IMG/VR virus record: IMGVR_UViG_3300038834_000178
Span: 1 to 23,738 of that record
Strand: one strand, 5' to 3'
DNA length: 23,738 nucleotides
Origin: a virus
The translations under genes and the position numbers were made by a program. Positions 3,018-19,347 of this stretch are shown one piece after another. Position 1 is the first letter of the stretch. Each line of letters opens with the position of its first letter. A model generated the notes under the pieces. It was not told the origin of the DNA and did not search any database. It saw nothing but the letters and a program-made list of their open reading frames with translations.

Positions 3018-3494
3018 TTATAGCATTTTGTAAGTAGAGTATTGTTTCTTATGTAAAACTCTAATGCTTGTTGTTGTTTCAAGCACTCCATCTTTATTGA
3101 TTTTTGTTTTACCATTATCCTTGTATGTATTTACCCAATCATCGCTAATCACTAGGCTAGTGGCAATATTTATAGGCGTTTCGTCATACATGTGACCTTC
3201 TACTACATACACTCCTGGTCTGTCAAAGTAAACTTTCATCTGACTCTCTCCGTATTTGATCTTGTAAAGAGCTAACTGGATATCTTCATCACTTAAATCT
3301 GGTTTAGCAAATAAACTATCTACACTATCTAGATCATTTGCATCAACTGTAGTAATCTTCCATATCCATACTTCGTCAGGTACTACAGCACCTTTCTCGA
3401 TATTGATGTACTGAATAAATGGTTCTGATAAAAATTCTTGACAGAAAAGTGTGCCGCTAAATACTAGGGCGAGTGTTAAAAATAAATTCTTCAT
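3018..3494 (-). CDS. Secreted protein of unknown function, likely cargo gene
   Basis: A 158-residue protein on the opposite strand to its neighbours. Residues 1-19 form a signal peptide (MKNLFLTLALVFSGTLFCQ) of the Bacteroidota style in which the mature protein starts at or near Gln; the Cys lacks a good lipobox, so a lipoprotein is less likely. The mature part is acidic. The segment MKVYFDRPGVYVVEGHMYD looks like a strand pair of a PKD/Ig-like beta-sandwich, followed by TSLVISDDWV. It probably acts in the periplasm or at the cell surface. It has its own promoter (3521-3552) and terminator (2989-3013), the arrangement of a 'moron', expressed separately from virion genes. Confidence 0.85.
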   Translation of the reverse strand: MKNLFLTLALVFSGTLFCQEFLSEPFIQYINIEKGAVVPDEVWIWKITTVDANDLDSVDSLFAKPDLSDEDIQLALYKIKYGESQMKVYFDRPGVYVVEGHMYDETPINIATSLVISDDWVNTYKDNGKTKINKDGVLETTTSIRVLHKKQYSTYKML

Positions 3495-11421: not shown

Positions 11422-11777
11422 GTTCAGTAGTAAACCTCGATGTATCCAAAAGATTAGATATCACCTGCAGAAAGGGCGATACGTTTAATCTTGTTATAAA
11501 TGTTACTGACGCTGCTGGCACAGCAGTAGATCTTACTACATACTCTTTTAAAATGGAGGTGCGTGCTACAGATACCTCTGAGGATTCTGTTATAACAGAT
11601 GATCAGTTAACCATTACTGGAACATCTGGCGGTGTTATTACGATTACTATACCAGCAAACGTCATGGCTGGTATTACTAGCGGATTGTATACATACGATT
11701 TACAGACGATAGTATCTGGTGTAACTCAAACATGGCTTCAAGGCGTGTTGCAAGTAAATGAGGATGTTACAGTATGA
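11418..11777 (+). CDS. Ig-like phage neck or baseplate-type protein
   Basis: A 119-residue beta-rich protein. The start VVNLDVSKRLDITCRKGDTF and the pattern of strands (FNLVINVTDAAGTAVDLTTY, SFKMEVRA, GVITITIPANVM, GLYTYDLQTIV) match the Ig-like N-terminal domain of the BppU type of phage baseplate proteins. Here that domain stands alone. Such domains anchor fibres to the virion, and the next gene is a 963-residue fibre whose ATG overlaps this stop (ATGA, 11774-11777). A role as the adaptor for that fibre is an inference from position. Confidence 0.78.
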   Translation: MSSVVNLDVSKRLDITCRKGDTFNLVINVTDAAGTAVDLTTYSFKMEVRATDTSEDSVITDDQLTITGTSGGVITITIPANVMAGITSGLYTYDLQTIVSGVTQTWLQGVLQVNEDVTV

Positions 11778-14665
11778 GCGATATAAACTTAAGCATATCG
11801 ACAGGCACTAATGTGCTTACCCAGGCCGTAGGTAGTGATGAGGTAAACTTAGCTTTGTCTAGCACTACCAATGTGCATACTACAGCTATACAGACGCAGA
11901 ATAATATCTCTATAGATTTAGATGCTTCTGTAACTCCTACTAGTATACTAAACCTTACCGATGTAAACGCATCGTCTATAACAAATGGCCAGCTTTTACA
12001 GTTTGACTCTACTAGCGGTACGTTTTTAAATTCTGATATAAGTTTAAATGAGTTGTCTGATGTTGCCATAACATCAGTTTCTAACAATCAAGTGTTAGCT
12101 TATAATGCTACGTCAGGAAACTTTGTTAATGTAAGCTTAGACTCAGACTCTTTTAATATAGACGCATCACAAATAGCTGTAAATTTAGGTAGCGGCTTTG
12201 AAGGTAGGCTTGTTACAGTAAATAGTGACGGTACTTTAAACGCTGAAAATTTAGCGCTTTATGATACAGGAGGCTCTCAGGGTTTGCAATTAATAAGCAC
12301 CGATCAGGGTGAGCCTAGTATAATTTTAGACAATCGTAATTCATCATCTGCTAATCCTTCTTTTATTCAGTTTAGGAAAGACAAGGGTGCTGCTGGAGCT
12401 GATGGTGACGAAATAGGTAAAATAGATTTTGTATCGGACGATGCAGGGCAAACTATAACTTCGTTTGGTCAGATTCTAGCTGAGGTAGAAGAAGCAGACG
12501 ATAGTGATGAAGCTGGTAAGCTATCGCTAAAAGTTTCTAATGATGGCACACTAACAGACGGTATAGTAATAACAGGTGATAAAAGTACGGCAGGAGAGGT
12601 TGATGTTACAATAGGATCAGGTGCTGCTTCGCTTACTACGGTGGCAGGGGATCTTTCAGTAACAACAGGTCTAACATTAGGTACAGCTTTAACTGTAGCA
12701 AATGGTGGAACGGGAGCTACATCCTTAACAGATAACGCTTTCTTGATGGGTAACGGCACAGGAGCTATTGAAGCCAACCCTCATTTAAAATATAGTGATC
12801 CTGGTCCAAATGTAGATGTGTTTACTTTTGGTGATGACAATTCAGCATCAGTTACAATAACTACAGACAATCAAGCGCCTCTAAACTTAATCGCAAAAAA
12901 TGCTTCAGGAACCACTGATACTGATGGTGGTGATTTAACACTCAGAGCTGGAGGTTCTACTGGTGCTGGAGATCCAGGAGATATTATCTTCCAAGTTTCT
13001 CCAACAACTTCTACAGGTCCAGGTACAACTAACCAAAACATTCCTGTTGAAGTAATGAGGCTTGAGCAGGGATCTCTTACTCTTCAAAGTTCAATTAATA
13101 GTTCCCCATCTTTTATATTAAAAAGCACAGATAGTACTATGAATACTGGTCATAGTATTCAGTTTATTAGAGATGAAGGTGATGCAGGTCAATCTTTAGA
13201 TGTTCTAGGGATAATACAATTTACAGGCGATGATGCTGGTCAAAATCAAACTGACTATGCTAAATTTTTAGTAACTACTGATGTTGCTACTGATGGCCAG
13301 GAGTCTGGCAAGATAGAGCTACAAGTTGCAAGTCACGATGCTGAACTTGTAACAGGCTTGTCTTTGACTGGAGGTGATGCTGAAGATGAGATTGACGTAA
13401 CAATTGGTAGTGGATCTAATTCAGTTACTACTATATCTGGAGACTTAGATATTGATGGAGACAAAATAACAACTGCTGGTAATATAGAAATAGAAACAGG
13501 TGGTAGTGGTAATATAACTTTAGATGCAGCTGGGGATATAGCTTTAGAAGCAGGTGATGGAGACATTACTGCTAACGCTAATTCTTTTATATTAAGCAAT
13601 GATGTAGGCACAAGCTCAAATGAACCTAAACTTACAATACATTCTTTAGATAACACTAATAGCTCTGGTGTTTTAGAGTTTTTCTCCACAAGAGGCACTG
13701 CAGGCACTACTGATGCAAGTGATGGTGATGATCTTGGAAGAATAGATTTTAAAGGTCAAGATGACAGTACTCCTACAGAAAATACATATGCCTCAATACT
13801 TGGTCAAATTGTAGATGCTACTGCTAATAATGAAAAGGGAGAAATAAGATTTACAGTAAGTTCGGGTTATACTTTTACTTCGATTGCCGTTCAAGCTCTT
13901 TTGCTTACAGGAGGTAGTAATGGAAGAGCTGATGTAACTTTAGGTAACACTGTAAGTTCAATGACCACTACAACTGGTGACTTGACTGTTTCTGGTGGGG
14001 ATATTAATGGTCCTACAGATGGTAATTTAAATATTAGCTCTGACGACAACATCCTTTTAACTCTTGACGCAGATAGTGATAGTACTAGTTTTGTAAAAGT
14101 AGTTAGTGGAGCTAGTGATGTTGCTACAATATCTGAAACTGGAAGTATTTTTACGGCTGACACTATAGAGCTAGGGCACGCAACAGATACTACTATAGCT
14201 AGATCAGCTGCTGGCAAAGTTACTATTGAGGGTAACGAAATACAGACAACAAATGTTCACCATCATTTTCTTAATGCTGGATTTTTTATGAGTTTTCCTT
14301 TTTCGAGATTCATACCTTTAAATGGAAGTATTCTTGAACAAAATACATCTACAGCTTCACCAGAGTATACGCACTTTATTTTTCCTTATGATGGGTTTGT
14401 TAAAACTATGTGGTTAAGAAGTGAAACTGATATGGGAAGTACAGAGTTGAAATTGTTTGGAGGTACTGCTGGCAACCAGGTTACTACAGCTAAGGGAGCT
14501 GTTACAGCAACGGTTTCAGCTGAAGGTACGACAGAGTTTGATTTTACTTCTGTAACAAATACGTTTGTTCAAGGTGAATCTATGGCTGTCAGGATAGATC
14601 CAACTGACGATCCAGATGGCGGTCAAAATATTACTATAGAGTTAGTGTTTAACTTAACAACTTAA
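11774..14665 (+). CDS. Large modular tail or appendage fibre
   Basis: A 963-residue Thr/Ser/Gly/Asp-rich, Cys-free fibre. The N-terminal part has two short fibre repeats (near 58-92 and 91-121: ITNGQLLQFDSTSGTF, SNNQVLAYNATSGNF). Three related modules of about 120 residues follow (near 180-296, 444-560, 617-739), each with a G.I.F..DD core and ending in DVTIGSG..S.TT..GDL. A VANGGTGATSL segment at 308-318, typical of phage fibres, lies between modules 1 and 2. The end (826-963) starts HHHFLNAGFFMSF then RFIPLNGSILEQ and looks like a jelly-roll tip, probably the receptor-binding part. It forms a trimeric spike or fibre in the usual model. Confidence 0.82.
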   Translation: MSDINLSISTGTNVLTQAVGSDEVNLALSSTTNVHTTAIQTQNNISIDLDASVTPTSILNLTDVNASSITNGQLLQFDSTSGTFLNSDISLNELSDVAITSVSNNQVLAYNATSGNFVNVSLDSDSFNIDASQIAVNLGSGFEGRLVTVNSDGTLNAENLALYDTGGSQGLQLISTDQGEPSIILDNRNSSSANPSFIQFRKDKGAAGADGDEIGKIDFVSDDAGQTITSFGQILAEVEEADDSDEAGKLSLKVSNDGTLTDGIVITGDKSTAGEVDVTIGSGAASLTTVAGDLSVTTGLTLGTALTVANGGTGATSLTDNAFLMGNGTGAIEANPHLKYSDPGPNVDVFTFGDDNSASVTITTDNQAPLNLIAKNASGTTDTDGGDLTLRAGGSTGAGDPGDIIFQVSPTTSTGPGTTNQNIPVEVMRLEQGSLTLQSSINSSPSFILKSTDSTMNTGHSIQFIRDEGDAGQSLDVLGIIQFTGDDAGQNQTDYAKFLVTTDVATDGQESGKIELQVASHDAELVTGLSLTGGDAEDEIDVTIGSGSNSVTTISGDLDIDGDKITTAGNIEIETGGSGNITLDAAGDIALEAGDGDITANANSFILSNDVGTSSNEPKLTIHSLDNTNSSGVLEFFSTRGTAGTTDASDGDDLGRIDFKGQDDSTPTENTYASILGQIVDATANNEKGEIRFTVSSGYTFTSIAVQALLLTGGSNGRADVTLGNTVSSMTTTTGDLTVSGGDINGPTDGNLNISSDDNILLTLDADSDSTSFVKVVSGASDVATISETGSIFTADTIELGHATDTTIARSAAGKVTIEGNEIQTTNVHHHFLNAGFFMSFPFSRFIPLNGSILEQNTSTASPEYTHFIFPYDGFVKTMWLRSETDMGSTELKLFGGTAGNQVTTAKGAVTATVSAEGTTEFDFTSVTNTFVQGESMAVRIDPTDDPDGGQNITIELVFNLTT
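12311..13990 (+). repeat. Three diverged repeat modules inside the fibre gene
   Basis: The encoded blocks at about 12311-12661, 13103-13453 and 13622-13990 share the order P-S/K-F/L, GxIxF/GRIDF, DD-GQ or DDSTP, E-GKI or KGEI, LTGG, DVT-IGS, TT--GDL. They are diverged at the DNA level, so the duplication is old or the modules were acquired separately. Confidence 0.7.
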
Positions 14666-14669
14666 TACT

Positions 14670-15227
14670 ATGGCATTAGAAAACGCAAGATATACAGCAA
14701 TACATGATAAAACAGGTTCTGATAAAGACAAACTTAAAGATGAGTTTGACGCTGGACATGCCCAAAGACTAGCAGGAAGACCTGATAAAGAGCCTTTAAT
14801 TTCATCTATCATGTATCAGCTTGGATTAATGCAAGAAGAGCTCGATTATCTTAGAGGTATAATAAGTTCTAACAAAGACAAGACTGGTATAACAACAGCT
14901 CAAGCAAATGCTATTACAGCGAACACAGCTAAAACTTCTTTTCCAGGGTTCGGTACAACAAGTTCAACAGCGTTAGCAGGTGATACTACAACTATATCTA
15001 CAACTCAAGCGCAAGCTATAACAGCTAACTCAAAACTTGGGCAAAGGCTTCAAGCTTCAACGCAAGCTAGCCTCACTAAATCAACTGCTATTGAGTTTGG
15101 TGAGTTTACTACAACTGTTTCAGGCAAAACAACAACTTATAGTATACCTATAACAGTAACAGAAACTACTATTGGTGGGAAAGGTAATACTACTATAACT
15201 AAAACAGGATCAATAACATTAACGTAA
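14670..15227 (+). CDS. Small fibre-like protein with ITTAQA repeats
   Basis: A 185-residue protein. Residues 1-70 are charged and helical (DKDKLKDEFDAGHAQRL, then SIMYQLGLMQEELDYLRG). Two copies of a phage-fibre motif follow: GITTAQANAITANTAK (73-88) and ISTTQAQAITANSK (109-122), known from trimeric fibre stalks. Residues 135-185 are Thr-rich beta strands. It probably is a short virion spike or a partner of the 963-residue fibre; a fibre chaperone is also possible. It starts 5 bases after that gene and stops one base before the next one. Confidence 0.75.
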   Translation: MALENARYTAIHDKTGSDKDKLKDEFDAGHAQRLAGRPDKEPLISSIMYQLGLMQEELDYLRGIISSNKDKTGITTAQANAITANTAKTSFPGFGTTSSTALAGDTTTISTTQAQAITANSKLGQRLQASTQASLTKSTAIEFGEFTTTVSGKTTTYSIPITVTETTIGGKGNTTITKTGSITLT

Positions 15228-15228
15228 C

Positions 15229-17445
15229 ATGAAAAATAAATCTTACTTATTGGTTTTTTTATTTTGGGTGTTAGCATCATATGTGCTAGGTCAAGGAAGT
15301 TGGTTGGATGTGCAGGTTCAAACAGATCAGTATGCTGGGGAGACTTCTTGGGAAATACTTAATGAAGACTCTGAAGTTGTAGCAGCAAGCCCTCCATATC
15401 AAAACAATACCTTTCAAAATCACATGGTGTTTCTACCGTCTGGAGATTACGAGTTTGTAATGATGGATGCTTTTGGTGACGGTATATGCTGTCAATTTGG
15501 AGAGGGCTGGTATAGGATAAGCAATACATGTGGATTAGATACAGCAGTGTATGATTTTGATACAGCTTTAGACACTATACCTTTTACTTTAAACCCCTGC
15601 ATACCCCCTCTTCCTGGGTGTACTAATCCTGTTGCTAACAACTACAATCCATGGGCTAACATAGACAACGGAAGCTGTAATGTATTTGAGTGTGACTCTA
15701 CAGAAACTTTGGTTTCTATGGATCTTACTTTAGATACGTGGCCAGGAGAAACTGGATTTACGTTAGTAGATATAGCTACTGGTGAGTTTTATGATCAGGT
15801 AATACCAGGAGAGTTTGATTTTGGAGATCAATTAGTTACATACACTTATAACTTTTGTGTTAGTTTAGGTTTTGAATTAATATTAGTAGACGAGTTTGGT
15901 GACGGACTAAACGGTTATGCTTCAGGCGGCGAAGATGGAGCGTGTGTTATTACTGCTTGCGATAGTGTGTTATGGGAGTTAGAAGATTTAGCATTTACCA
16001 CATTTGATGATGGTAATACGATGTACTCTGGAGCTATCTTTACTGAGCCATGCCCTCCAACACCTCCTATCTATGGTTGTATGGATGACGATTATGTAGA
16101 CTATAATCCAGAGGCTACACTTCCAGATACTTGCGAAACTTTACACACTTGGGGTTGTACAAATCCAGATGCTTTGAATTACGATAGCACTGCAACTATA
16201 GCAGATCTTGTAGGACCTTGTACTATACAGATCGTTCTTGAAGATGACGCAGCTGACGGGTGGGGTAATTCTACTATAGGTATGGTGCAAGGAGAACAAC
16301 AGTGGATGTTTACCGTAGGTCCTGGCGAGTTCTTTCAGTCATGGGATATTGTGCTAGACTCTGATGAAGAAGTCGATATATACTATTTTCAAGCTGGTAA
16401 TCAACAGCAATCATCTCAAGAGCTAGCTTTCCAGACTTTACATAACTCTGTATATGTCCTTAACGAAGCTGGGGACACTTTATTGTCTGAAGGCAGTAAC
16501 CCATTTATAAACAACGGACAGGGTGCTCTTCAGCCATTTACAGGTCCTAACTGGACGGTATATCACTTTACGCCGTATTGCGGAGACAGTTGTATACCTT
16601 ATATATATGGTTGCATAGATGACGCTGCTTGCAACTACAATCCAGAAGCCAACACAAGCTCTGAGTGTAACTACCCAGTTCAGTATTATGATTGTGCAAA
16701 TATGTGTGTCAACGACGCTGATGGCGACGGTGTATGTGATGAGTTAGAAGTTATTGGCTGTCAAGATCCAACAGCATTTAATTACAACGCCTTAGCAACA
16801 GACGCTGGAGATTGTATTCCAGTAATATTTGGATGTACTGATCCAACTCAGTTTAATTATAATCCAGATGCTAATACAGAAAACGGAAGCTGCATACCTT
16901 ATATATACGGGTGTATGAATCCAGATGCATTTAACTACAACCCAGACGCTAACACAGAGCTTGAAGATTCTTGTATAGAGGTAGTAGCAGATTGTATGGA
17001 TCCTGATGCATATAACTACAATGAGTTAGCAAACACTCCAGATGAAGAATCTTGCTTATATGACGCAGGTTGTATTACAGGACCTGGCGAGCCTTACTGG
17101 CTTAACGATGGGTGTTATGCATGGATTATCGATATAGATCCTTACTGCTGCGAAGTAGCTTGGGATGAGGCATGTGTTGATCTATACTCTTACTGTGAGC
17201 AAGGCTGGCCGCAAGGTGTATATGATATACATGATGTATATGGTGTATACCCTAATCCAACAAACGGATTATTGTATATACAAGCTCCATCAACAGCTAT
17301 GATATCTTTGTATAACTATTTAGGTCAAGTTATTATACAAACTTCTGATAAAACAATAGACCTCTCACACCTTTCAAACGGTGTGTATGAGGTCGTTATA
17401 CAATACAACTCTAGAATTATTAAAAACAAAATTATTAAATCATGA
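15229..17445 (+). CDS. Secreted multidomain protein with type IX secretion sorting domain
   Basis: A 738-residue Cys-rich acidic protein with (i) a signal peptide, residues 1-22, ending VLGQ; (ii) a beta-domain with the Bacteroidota motif DAFGDGICCQFGEGWY (80-95); (iii) a second such domain with DEFGDGLNG (221-229) and a third starting TIQIVLEDDAADGWGNS; (iv) eight Cys repeats of the form GC.(D/N)P.A.NYNP.A....C at 130, 283, 309, 461, 510, 535, 561 and 588; (v) a DADGDGVCDE calcium-type motif (497-506); (vi) a CCEVAWDEACVDLYSYC block (640-656); (vii) a C-terminal T9SS sorting domain, 674-738 (YPNPTNGLLYI, LYNYLGQVI, LSNGVYEVVI, KIIKS). It should pass the Sec system, then the host type IX translocon, to the cell surface. 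It sits among fibre genes, so a virion part cannot be excluded. Its stop overlaps the next start. Confidence 0.88.
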   Translation: MKNKSYLLVFLFWVLASYVLGQGSWLDVQVQTDQYAGETSWEILNEDSEVVAASPPYQNNTFQNHMVFLPSGDYEFVMMDAFGDGICCQFGEGWYRISNTCGLDTAVYDFDTALDTIPFTLNPCIPPLPGCTNPVANNYNPWANIDNGSCNVFECDSTETLVSMDLTLDTWPGETGFTLVDIATGEFYDQVIPGEFDFGDQLVTYTYNFCVSLGFELILVDEFGDGLNGYASGGEDGACVITACDSVLWELEDLAFTTFDDGNTMYSGAIFTEPCPPTPPIYGCMDDDYVDYNPEATLPDTCETLHTWGCTNPDALNYDSTATIADLVGPCTIQIVLEDDAADGWGNSTIGMVQGEQQWMFTVGPGEFFQSWDIVLDSDEEVDIYYFQAGNQQQSSQELAFQTLHNSVYVLNEAGDTLLSEGSNPFINNGQGALQPFTGPNWTVYHFTPYCGDSCIPYIYGCIDDAACNYNPEANTSSECNYPVQYYDCANMCVNDADGDGVCDELEVIGCQDPTAFNYNALATDAGDCIPVIFGCTDPTQFNYNPDANTENGSCIPYIYGCMNPDAFNYNPDANTELEDSCIEVVADCMDPDAYNYNELANTPDEESCLYDAGCITGPGEPYWLNDGCYAWIIDIDPYCCEVAWDEACVDLYSYCEQGWPQGVYDIHDVYGVYPNPTNGLLYIQAPSTAMISLYNYLGQVIIQTSDKTIDLSHLSNGVYEVVIQYNSRIIKNKIIKS
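16606..17055 (+). repeat. Run of Cys/NYNP repeats in the secreted protein
   Basis: Five of the eight Cys repeats lie here (residues about 460-609), each about 20 residues with two Cys and an N-Y-N core, joined by PYIYGC or VIFGC linkers. A DGDG motif separates the first from the rest. In Bacteroidota surface proteins such repeats act as disulphide-held spacers. Confidence 0.75.
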
Positions 17446-17591
17446 AGGTTAATTGGATCAATAGCTGGAACGCTAACAACAAAAAAGAAAAGTATCATTT
17501 AGAATGGAGGTTAGGAACAATCACCATCCTAGAAATACGTTACGCAAAAAAGTTTAGATTTATGATTTTAAATGTAGGATTTGAAGTGTGA
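17442..17591 (+). CDS. 49-residue basic protein, unknown function
   Basis: A short frame from ATG at 17442 to TGA at 17591. The product starts MKVNWINSWN, has a KKEKYHLEWRLGTITILEI middle and ends MILNVGFEV; it has no signal peptide and looks like a small beta-strand protein. Support comes from coupling: its ATG overlaps the stop of the T9SS-type gene (ATGA), and its stop overlaps the next start (TGATG), and without it the 145-base gap would be the only large one in an otherwise packed unit. Trp/Tyr content and strand pattern look protein-like. Function unknown. Confidence 0.68.
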   Translation: MKVNWINSWNANNKKEKYHLEWRLGTITILEIRYAKKFRFMILNVGFEV

Positions 17592-18688
17592 TGTCACCAG
17601 ACCAATTAAATAACTGCCGTAAGTACAAAAGATTACAGTTCTTTCTTTACATGACAATAATGCTTGTCGTGTTTATTCTTGGTGCGTCTACAGAAGTAAA
17701 AGGACAAACGTTAAAAAAGACATTTAAGTTTGCTACCTTTTATGCCGCTGTTAGCGGTGGTAATTCTGTCGCTGACGACAATATCTACTCTGTAACAAAT
17801 GGCTTACAAACCGATGTTGTAGAAACACCTTTTGATTACTCCATGACTTTGGGTGTAAGAAAGATTGCTAGGTTTGGGTATGAGAATAGAGCAAATACTT
17901 TTTACAACGGTACTGAAAGATCGTATAGTGATGCTGCAAACATCGGTAAGGTAAAAGGCTTTGAGTTTTTGTTTGAAGCTGACTGGCGAAGACAGCAGGG
18001 TAGAAACTTTTTAGATCAAGATTACTTCCTTCGTTACGTTGCAAAAAACTGGATCGCTAAAGCTGAGTATTTGCAAGATGGTTTTGCTGATGTCGAATAC
18101 TTTGAGGGTTCTCAACGATTAAGGTTAAACGTCAATAGTAAGTTTAGTTTTAATGTAGGTATAGCTCAGCGTATATCAGAGCCATATGGTTACAATCCCT
18201 TAGACGAGTGGGTACTACCTAACGGGAATTTACACTACACAAGTTTAGCTATACAAGAAGGGTATACTGTTGACGTACAGGCAGAAGAATACTTTACTCC
18301 TAACGGAGAGCTTATTGCAAATAGTTCTGATGTATGGGAGCAGGTTGTTATCCCTCAAGTGATAGATGACTATGTAGATCGTAAGCGTAGCGAGCTACCT
18401 AATCAATGGAACTATTCTGTTGTTTTAGGTTATGACTATTACCACTTTACAAAAGATTACTGGCTGCACTCTTGGGTTAGTGTTATGCCATATCACTTAA
18501 AGACAGAAGGTGAGTACTCTTACTTTGAAACCACTGATGGAGCTCAATGGATCGATTACGGTGCAGGCCTTATCTTTGGGTGGAGATTAAATAAAAGTCT
18601 TGGTGTTTTCTTAGAAGGTAAATACAATAAGTATTGGAATAGAGAATGGCATGACTTTACTGTAGGACTTAATTATGTAATAATATAA
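17591..18688 (+). CDS. Phage-encoded outer-membrane beta-barrel protein
   Basis: A 365-residue protein from ATG at 17591 (a GTG at 17588 is also in frame, but the TGATG overlap favours the ATG). Residues 1-39 are a long signal sequence: basic start, hydrophobic core 16-33, end EVKGQ. The mature part has many alternating amphipathic strands rich in Tyr, Trp and Phe (WNYSVVLGYDYYHF, WLHSWVSVMPYHL, YGAGLIFGWRL, LGVFLEGKYNKYW) and ends with DFTVGLNYVII, like the last strand of outer-membrane barrels. RKIARFGYENRANTFYNG and EPYGYNPLDEW look like conserved loop motifs. It should insert in the host outer membrane; roles such as surface change, superinfection exclusion or exit are open. Similar proteins may exist in related phages; I could not check. 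Confidence 0.75.
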   Translation: MSPDQLNNCRKYKRLQFFLYMTIMLVVFILGASTEVKGQTLKKTFKFATFYAAVSGGNSVADDNIYSVTNGLQTDVVETPFDYSMTLGVRKIARFGYENRANTFYNGTERSYSDAANIGKVKGFEFLFEADWRRQQGRNFLDQDYFLRYVAKNWIAKAEYLQDGFADVEYFEGSQRLRLNVNSKFSFNVGIAQRISEPYGYNPLDEWVLPNGNLHYTSLAIQEGYTVDVQAEEYFTPNGELIANSSDVWEQVVIPQVIDDYVDRKRSELPNQWNYSVVLGYDYYHFTKDYWLHSWVSVMPYHLKTEGEYSYFETTDGAQWIDYGAGLIFGWRLNKSLGVFLEGKYNKYWNREWHDFTVGLNYVII

Positions 18689-18978: not shown

Positions 18979-19347
18979 ATGAAAACTGTTCTAGTATCTG
19001 TATTATCGCTTCTATCATTATTAATGGTGGCGCATGTATCTCCTCTGGAGAGTGCCCCAGAAATTAGTAAAGACGGCATATGTGTTGCAGAGTTTAACGC
19101 TTCGTTCAACTCTCAAAACAGTGTGCCATGGATAGAAAAGCTAAACGACTGCACAACAACCCGTGTAGACATTGCCGTTGCTCCAGAGTTACAAATCGAG
19201 CACAAGATCGTAGTGGTCCCAACAATCGTTGTATTCAACAACGGAGAGGAGGTGGATCGCTTCCAGGCGAATATTATGATGACAATGGAGGCGAGTAAGA
19301 GTGATGTGCAGGGTGCTATTGACGAAATTATAATGAGCGACTTCTAA
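18979..19347 (+). CDS. Exported thioredoxin-like protein lacking the CXXC site
   Basis: A 122-residue protein with a hydrophobic N-terminal export segment (1-22, SVLSLLSLLMVAHV). The rest follows thioredoxin order: strand with VAEFNASF (36-43), helix, second strand TRVDI, VVVPTIVVFNNGEEV (78-92) with the cis-proline at 81, then the last helix. At the place of the redox motif CGPC the sequence reads about NSQN, so it cannot be a normal dithiol oxidoreductase; Cys35 and Cys58 are not paired in that way. A periplasmic binding or structural role is more likely. An overlapping out-of-frame ATG at 18972 was not chosen. The stop overlaps the next start (TAATG). Confidence 0.78.
   Translation: MKTVLVSVLSLLSLLMVAHVSPLESAPEISKDGICVAEFNASFNSQNSVPWIEKLNDCTTTRVDIAVAPELQIEHKIVVVPTIVVFNNGEEVDRFQANIMMTMEASKSDVQGAIDEIIMSDF

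Follow-up and report, generated by a model that had tools for sequence, protein, structure and literature searches.

A phage gene for a predicted type IX secretion cargo lies in a linked four-gene envelope cassette

The window analysed here, meaning the whole 23,738-base stretch of DNA that makes up the IMG/VR record IMGVR_UViG_3300038834_000178, carries a TerL gene (phrog_6681, E 4e-208), a portal gene (phrog_6547, E 5e-196) and a gene for a virion structural protein that is the major capsid candidate (phrog_13704, E 6e-109). The gene under study, P0001, is positioned between the portal and capsid genes. Among the matches listed for TerL, the relatives in named phages (40-48%) belong to Flavobacterium elemo, Cellulophaga, Tenacibaculum, Maribacter and Azobacteroides phages. 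Because these relatives infect Bacteroidota, a Bacteroidota host is likely, but it has not been shown, and as the host is unidentified the presence of a type IX secretion system (T9SS) in it is an inference. The features of the locus, based on mechanical calling of open reading frames, are collected in Table 1.

Table 1 Features of the P0001 locus and of the encoded protein.
Feature	Position	Strand	Remarks
Upstream gene pair encoding probable fibre or adhesion proteins (963 and 185 aa)	11774..15227	+	Function inferred
P0001, T9SS type A cargo gene	15229..17445	+	Intact ORF, 738 aa
P0001 signal peptide	residues 1-22		Family alignment / inspection
P0001 N-terminal domain	residues 23-125		
P0001 central beta-rich domains	residues 126-455		
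P0001 GC(T/M)D..A.NYNP cysteine-rich repeats	residues 456-609		
P0001 near-invariant Cys/Trp module, CITGPGEPYWLNDGCYAWIIDIDPYCCEVAWDEACVDLYSYC	residues 610-664		Followed by linker
P0001 sorting domain	residues 673-738		
Coding part of T9SS sorting domain (residues 672-738)	17242..17442	+	
Outer-membrane beta-barrel protein (OMP), 366 aa, ~12 strands, signal peptide	17588..18688	+	Start may be ATG 17591
TMcc, small inner-membrane protein, 94 aa	18688..18972	+	Sequence inspection
Exported thioredoxin-fold protein, 122 aa, signal peptide	18979..19347	+	Weak TIGR01068/PF00085 matches

An earlier, sequence-only reading of this DNA had placed P0001 in a single overlapping operon with fibre genes on one side. 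The junctions are indeed tight (15227/15229, with positions 18688 and 19347 each shared between neighbours), but a 142-bp gap at 17446-17587 interrupts the series and no promoter evidence exceeding that of shuffled sequences was found around these genes, so that this description holds only approximately. Fibres remain the probable, inferred identity of the two upstream genes, which matched no curated model. Elsewhere in the window, the opposite strand carries at 3018-3494 a gene for a 158-aa product with a signal-peptide-like start, MKNLFLTLALVFSGTLFCQ, and no family match, which is possibly another exported phage protein.

The P0001 protein starts with a Sec-type signal peptide, MKNKSYLLVFLFWVLASYVLGQ, ending in ...SYVLGQ, which was assigned by inspection without running SignalP. 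At its other end two curated models recognise a sorting domain: PF18962 (residues 673-736; bit score 40.3, cut-off 27; E 4e-10) and TIGR04183 (residues 673-737; bit score 40.4, cut-off 23; E 2.1e-10), with YPNP at residues 674-677 and the C-terminus NKIIKS at 738. The protein contains 37 Cys, 114 acidic and only 8 basic residues. The earlier description of a Sec signal peptide, a complete sorting domain running from YPNP at 674 to KIIKS at 738 and Cys-rich repeats between them is thereby borne out, well outside what chance would produce. No enzymatic or binding domain exceeded the Pfam cut-off in the body of 47 family members, nor did any known adhesin or carbohydrate-binding domain; we therefore ruled out the cargo being an enzyme of a kind that the Pfam search would have recognised.

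The assignment of the tail is also supported at the level of the fold. A profile built from 47 relatives matched solved T9SS tails in the PDB (8glk, 8glj and gingipain 5hfs), the top match being the lipase 7pzj, aligned over the C-terminal stretch. In the AlphaFold model of the cargo (m288d90fcee4b) the tail has a pLDDT of 77-89 and superimposes by Foldseek on 8glk_D, the NucA tail inside a substrate-bound T9SS complex, with a TM score of 0.76 and an rmsd of 2.5 Å; the corresponding TM scores are 0.70 for 8glj_D and 0.62 for the RgpB tail 7pq4. The arrangement of the domains in the whole cargo is undetermined, because the overall pTM of the model is low (0.31). Lack of a match to any T9SS sorting-domain model had been named as the outcome that would refute the assignment, and it did not occur: curated cut-offs were passed and the modelled tail has the beta-sandwich fold of solved T9SS substrate tails.

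Relatives of P0001 were found in at least 67 viral loci, mostly at 34-96% identity, and PF18962 is kept in 42 of 47 aligned relatives. A hydropathy scan combined with inspection (again without SignalP) gave a positive signal-peptide score for 121 of 130 unique complete tailed cargos, 111 having a Q after a small residue. In five of the nine exceptions the ORF continues an upstream basic gene without a change of frame, and a hydrophobic ...LLPILSLQAQ immediately precedes the cargo; L376 (loci are designated by L numbers) is similar to these five, and the remaining three have long n-regions preceding the hydrophobic stretch. The in-frame arrangement is found in L209, L217, L219, L222 and L227, where the upstream gene is small and basic (KKHGLKGVNK...) and the signal sequence internal, and represents either an alternative start or a fused precursor. 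The cargo gene is under purifying selection, with an NG86 dN/dS of ~0.06 overall and 0.04-0.08 in the body, and the T9SS tail (0.25) is itself maintained under selection; the signal peptide gives 0.57. Many of the synonymous distances are near saturation, the nearest pair having a dN of 0.020 and a dS of 0.165.

About a fifth of the cassettes described below carry, in place of the full T9SS domain, a short tail of ~45 residues (LIxVTDxLGRP...LLFFIYDDGTVEKKIIK) which TIGR04183 fails to recognise and which is possibly an undescribed T9SS signal. The pattern KKLIxVTDxLGRPxxxxxNxLLFFIYDDGTVEKKIIK marks a clade of other phages, and such C-termini are seen in cargos of L272, L277, L279, L283, L284, L287, L295, L298, L311 and L318. 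Two further phage proteins, L247:2-2590 (862 aa, cut at the 5' end) and L259:2105-6610 (1501 aa, with no signal peptide at its start), have the same cysteine-rich repeats without a sorting domain, from which we infer that this repeat type is common to presumed virion proteins and exported proteins.

Gene maps show that the 366-aa, 94-aa and 122-aa partners adjoin the cargo gene. The AlphaFold model of the barrel is of moderate confidence (pLDDT 71), and its Foldseek matches are to the barrels of NanC, NalP, EstA, EspP and FapF (E 1e-8 to 1e-6). As modelled, the barrel is nearest to NanC/KdgM, autotransporter and FapF barrels, and such matches indicate only the class of fold. It has no Pfam or NCBIfam assignment, and identification as a PorV or PorP homologue found no support in the NCBIfam search, where none of the 43 barrel members matched NF033709 (PorV_fam) at E 0.1. 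The best viral structural match of the barrel model was the BFVD entry A0A516LKJ4 (E 2.5e-22), which raises the possibility that a deposited phage carries a distant homologue. TMcc has one predicted transmembrane helix near residues 17-40, a C-terminal coiled coil and a weak match to phrog_1009; by inspection its topology fits that of an i-spanin (N-in/C-out), with the barrel and not an outer-membrane lipoprotein as its partner. In the thioredoxin-fold protein the CxxC site reads N..N (FNASFNSQN), and CxxC is absent from anywhere in 108 of 110 relatives, being present in only 2. An active thioredoxin was ruled out, since the redox motif is replaced.

In order to evaluate the association of these genes, we used the barrel family as bait in two scans, which gave 430 and 423 relatives, and took the best 80 of each. 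This yielded 129 loci with distinct barrel sequences, 70 of which have at least 3 kb of upstream and 5 kb of downstream sequence. All 70 had a cargo relative within 7 kb, with a full tail in 55, a short tail in 14 and a tail cut by the contig end in the last, while TMcc was present in 65 and the thioredoxin-fold gene in 68. Using TMcc as a second bait led back to the same cassette. The order of the genes is cargo, barrel, TMcc, thioredoxin in the window's type and barrel, TMcc, thioredoxin, cargo elsewhere. As the loci were selected by similarity and are partly related, these counts are not independent events. The cargo is a member of a linked four-gene envelope cassette, a membership that goes beyond what the sequence-only reading had proposed.

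The association was also evident from the TerL side. Among 20 records of the TerL family, PF18962 exceeded its cut-off in seven of the eight that have the barrel and in none of the 12 without it (Fisher p 1.0e-4, computed by hand; many of the records are fragments). The eighth barrel-bearing record, L404, has a 175-aa mini-cargo with a signal peptide, an N-domain and a short tail-like C-terminus, for which Pfam gave no match, and is a natural minimal version of the system; its cassette (L404:5328-7630) is divergent, with the barrel at 30%, TMcc at 70% and the thioredoxin at 40%. Divergent barrel, TMcc and thioredoxin genes are also present at L371:4900-6657, in a 65.7-kb record within which no cargo or tail was detectable and whose barrel is strongly diverged.

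The cassette is thus carried by many uncultured phages, predicted to infect Bacteroidota, and was not recovered elsewhere. No isolate in the collection searched carries it, and tblastn with each of the four cassette proteins found no homologue in 50,697 public phage records, a longer cargo giving only short repeat matches. A search of 84,980 bacterial and archaeal genomes, made with exact peptide patterns, found only weak local matches to the cargo, none of which spans the protein. A bacterial origin of the cassette is not excluded, because these genomes were searched with the cargo only and through such patterns.

The cassette has been transferred between phage backbones. It is found on very different ones: in some, the portal is only ~60% identical to that of the window, and other cassette phages, with contigs of up to 165 kb, have no recognised portal relative nearby. 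Distances of the barrel, TMcc, thioredoxin and cargo Cys/Trp module are intercorrelated (Spearman rho 0.40-0.61, 0/500 permutations), most strongly for the barrel with the Cys/Trp module (rho 0.61), and are uncorrelated with those of the portal (rho -0.10 to 0.16, 17-21 loci). The cargo is exchanged too. L123 has a portal identical to that of the window and a barrel that is 96% identical, but its cargo is only 39% identical: the middle is swapped, and the signal peptide and last ~130 residues are alike, so that passengers are exchanged while the export signals stay. In L082 the same cargo stands beside fibre genes that are quite different, and together these two comparisons indicate that cargo and fibres can change separately. 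When the window was compared by sliding identity with the same-backbone loci L123, L082, L083 and L097, nucleotide identity in the hypervariable stretch of probable fibre genes upstream of the cargo (11800-15220) was about 45-50% over much of its length, as against mostly ≥95% in the flanks.

We consider it likely that the product of P0001 is a true T9SS type A cargo, which the phage makes as part of a four-gene cassette and exports via the T9SS of the host, a proposal limited by the absence of expression, proteomics or infection data. Export by this route is well supported by the sequence features, on which it rests, and export during infection is inferred. No PorV homologue was found with NF033709 in any of 40 cassette phage records (0/40), and for this reason export would depend on the host machine. 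A search of the phage records with SprA_N was likewise empty, but control genomes were equally silent, making it uninformative. A giant neighbour of 2300 aa, considered as a possible SprA, was rejected, as its end sequences resemble an internal virion protein; SprA_N did not match it, in a search in which the controls were silent.

In the mechanism that we propose, the host Sec pathway would take the cargo across the inner membrane late in infection, the host T9SS would recognise it through its C-terminal domain, and the cargo would then either be set free or stay anchored at the surface of the infected cell; removal of the tail by PorU and the surface location itself are inferred. The barrel, placed in the outer membrane, would probably partner or anchor the cargo at the surface, and the redox-dead periplasmic thioredoxin fold may help the cysteine-rich cargo to fold. 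Contact between cargo and barrel is suggested, not shown, by the near-constant presence of the barrel with tailed cargos and by its correlation with the Cys/Trp module.

Since a cysteine-rich protein is tagged for the host T9SS, the phage probably gives the infected cell a new surface coat. Coating the cell, blocking other phages, gluing cells together and being carried on the virion had all been suggested as roles from the sequence, and none of them is demonstrated. The leading, unproven possibility, which we put forward tentatively, is that the coat prevents competing phages or the phage's own progeny from adsorbing. Nothing points directly to masking of a receptor, because no enzymatic or binding domain in the body of the cargo exceeds the Pfam cut-off, and the idea of a fibre-specific mask is weakened by L082. 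More speculatively, the four genes may constitute a dedicated phage surface-display system, in which the phage's own barrel and trans-envelope helpers capture a cargo pushed through the host T9SS, as a mobile module shared by unrelated Bacteroidota phages that reprograms the outer surface of infected cells.

The exported cargo could instead be an adhesin that helps the phage to spread by sticking infected cells to neighbours, particles or new hosts. Its highly acidic, cysteine-rich repeats resemble Bacteroidota surface repeat proteins, and the same repeat type is present in the phage proteins of L247 and L259, which have no sorting domain; nevertheless, without a known adhesin or carbohydrate-binding domain over the cut-off, we regard this role as unlikely.

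Also unlikely is a function of the cassette in lysis or egress, where the barrel, the i-spanin-like TMcc and a pre-loaded surface cargo would weaken the outer envelope, or open it, as the infection ends. In its favour, 44 of 168 loci encode just upstream a 144-aa protein with a weak match to a 3TM holin (PF11351, E 0.005, below the cut-off), 21 have a peptidase M15 (PF08291) at a distance of up to ~6 kb and one has DUF5675; the topology of TMcc, judged by inspection, would also fit. However, in the window's family the cassette has probable fibre genes on one side and capsid genes on the other, and no lysis gene was recognised next to it. The cargo lacks a hydrolase domain, the barrel differs from an o-spanin in not being a lipoprotein, and export by the T9SS needs time and energy and cannot work after the membrane has collapsed. 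The 144-aa ORF, weakly GTA_holin_3TM-like (for example L189:3245-3685), hints at a link to lysis timing.

The location of the cargo gene among structural genes, and the similarity of its repeats to those of cyanophage virion structural proteins, would agree with the cargo and barrel being virion or virion-associated proteins and not modifiers of the host surface, but the signal peptides of cargo, barrel and thioredoxin take them away from the cytoplasm, the site of virion assembly, and the T9SS tail is maintained under selection, which makes this quite improbable. Although the repeats and tail are of host type and Bacteroidota commonly encode T9SS cargos, the idea of a host gene captured recently and without a phage role, whether boundary artefact or passenger, can hardly be maintained given the occurrence in at least 67 viral loci, the dN/dS of ~0.06, the linkage with three partner genes and the merely weak, non-spanning matches in cellular genomes (a pattern-limited search), and with TerL, portal and structural genes on the same contig P0001 is, as first read, a phage gene and not a host gene at a boundary.

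The preferred reading, a phage-made cargo for the host T9SS, can be compared with several known systems. P0001 shares the C-terminal domain, in both sequence and fold, and the Sec signal peptide with Bacteroidota T9SS type A cargos such as gingipain RgpB and NucA, from which it differs in being phage-encoded and in having a cysteine-rich repeat body without a protease or nuclease domain. Like the PorV/FadL-type shuttle of the T9SS, the barrel is an outer-membrane barrel hypothesised to partner a T9SS cargo; unlike it, it has no PorV_fam match and ~12 strands instead of 14. Phage-encoded outer-membrane proteins can alter receptors, an example being the Lc porin of phage PA-2. Both that porin and the window's barrel are phage-encoded outer-membrane barrels with a possible effect on superinfection (their sequences were not compared), but the latter matches no porin family and is found together with a T9SS cargo.

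Export of phage proteins via a dedicated outer-membrane secretion system of the host is not generally known, and such use had been called notable when this DNA was first read. It is not without precedent. Cryophage has T9SS type A sorting domains on proteins that vary between close relatives, as do those of the P0001 family, and was proposed to use the host T9SS, superinfection exclusion also being suggested (Bellas et al. 2020, PMC7468147). Its cargos are an endoglucanase, a GH39 protein and a PA14 protein in variable islands, whereas that of the window has no enzyme domain and belongs to a conserved four-gene cassette; no barrel, coiled-coil or thioredoxin partner is described in the portion of that report available (PMC7468147). 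The crAss-BACON ORF with a T9SS sorting domain similarly comes from a Bacteroidota phage, with sorting-domain proteins near the head genes, but consists of tandem BACON domain repeats, and the available text describes no cassette (de Jonge et al. 2019, PMC6949934). We found no description of the four-gene cassette in the open-access literature, whose silence is not proof. Phage-encoded T9SS cargo has already been reported, and what appears to be new is the conserved cassette.

The existence of a conserved, transferable module with fixed envelope partners would make use of the T9SS a real and testable phage strategy. It links to the T9SS a barrel family that has lacked a Pfam or NCBIfam assignment, and it offers a concrete starting point for studying how Bacteroidota phages change the surface of their hosts.
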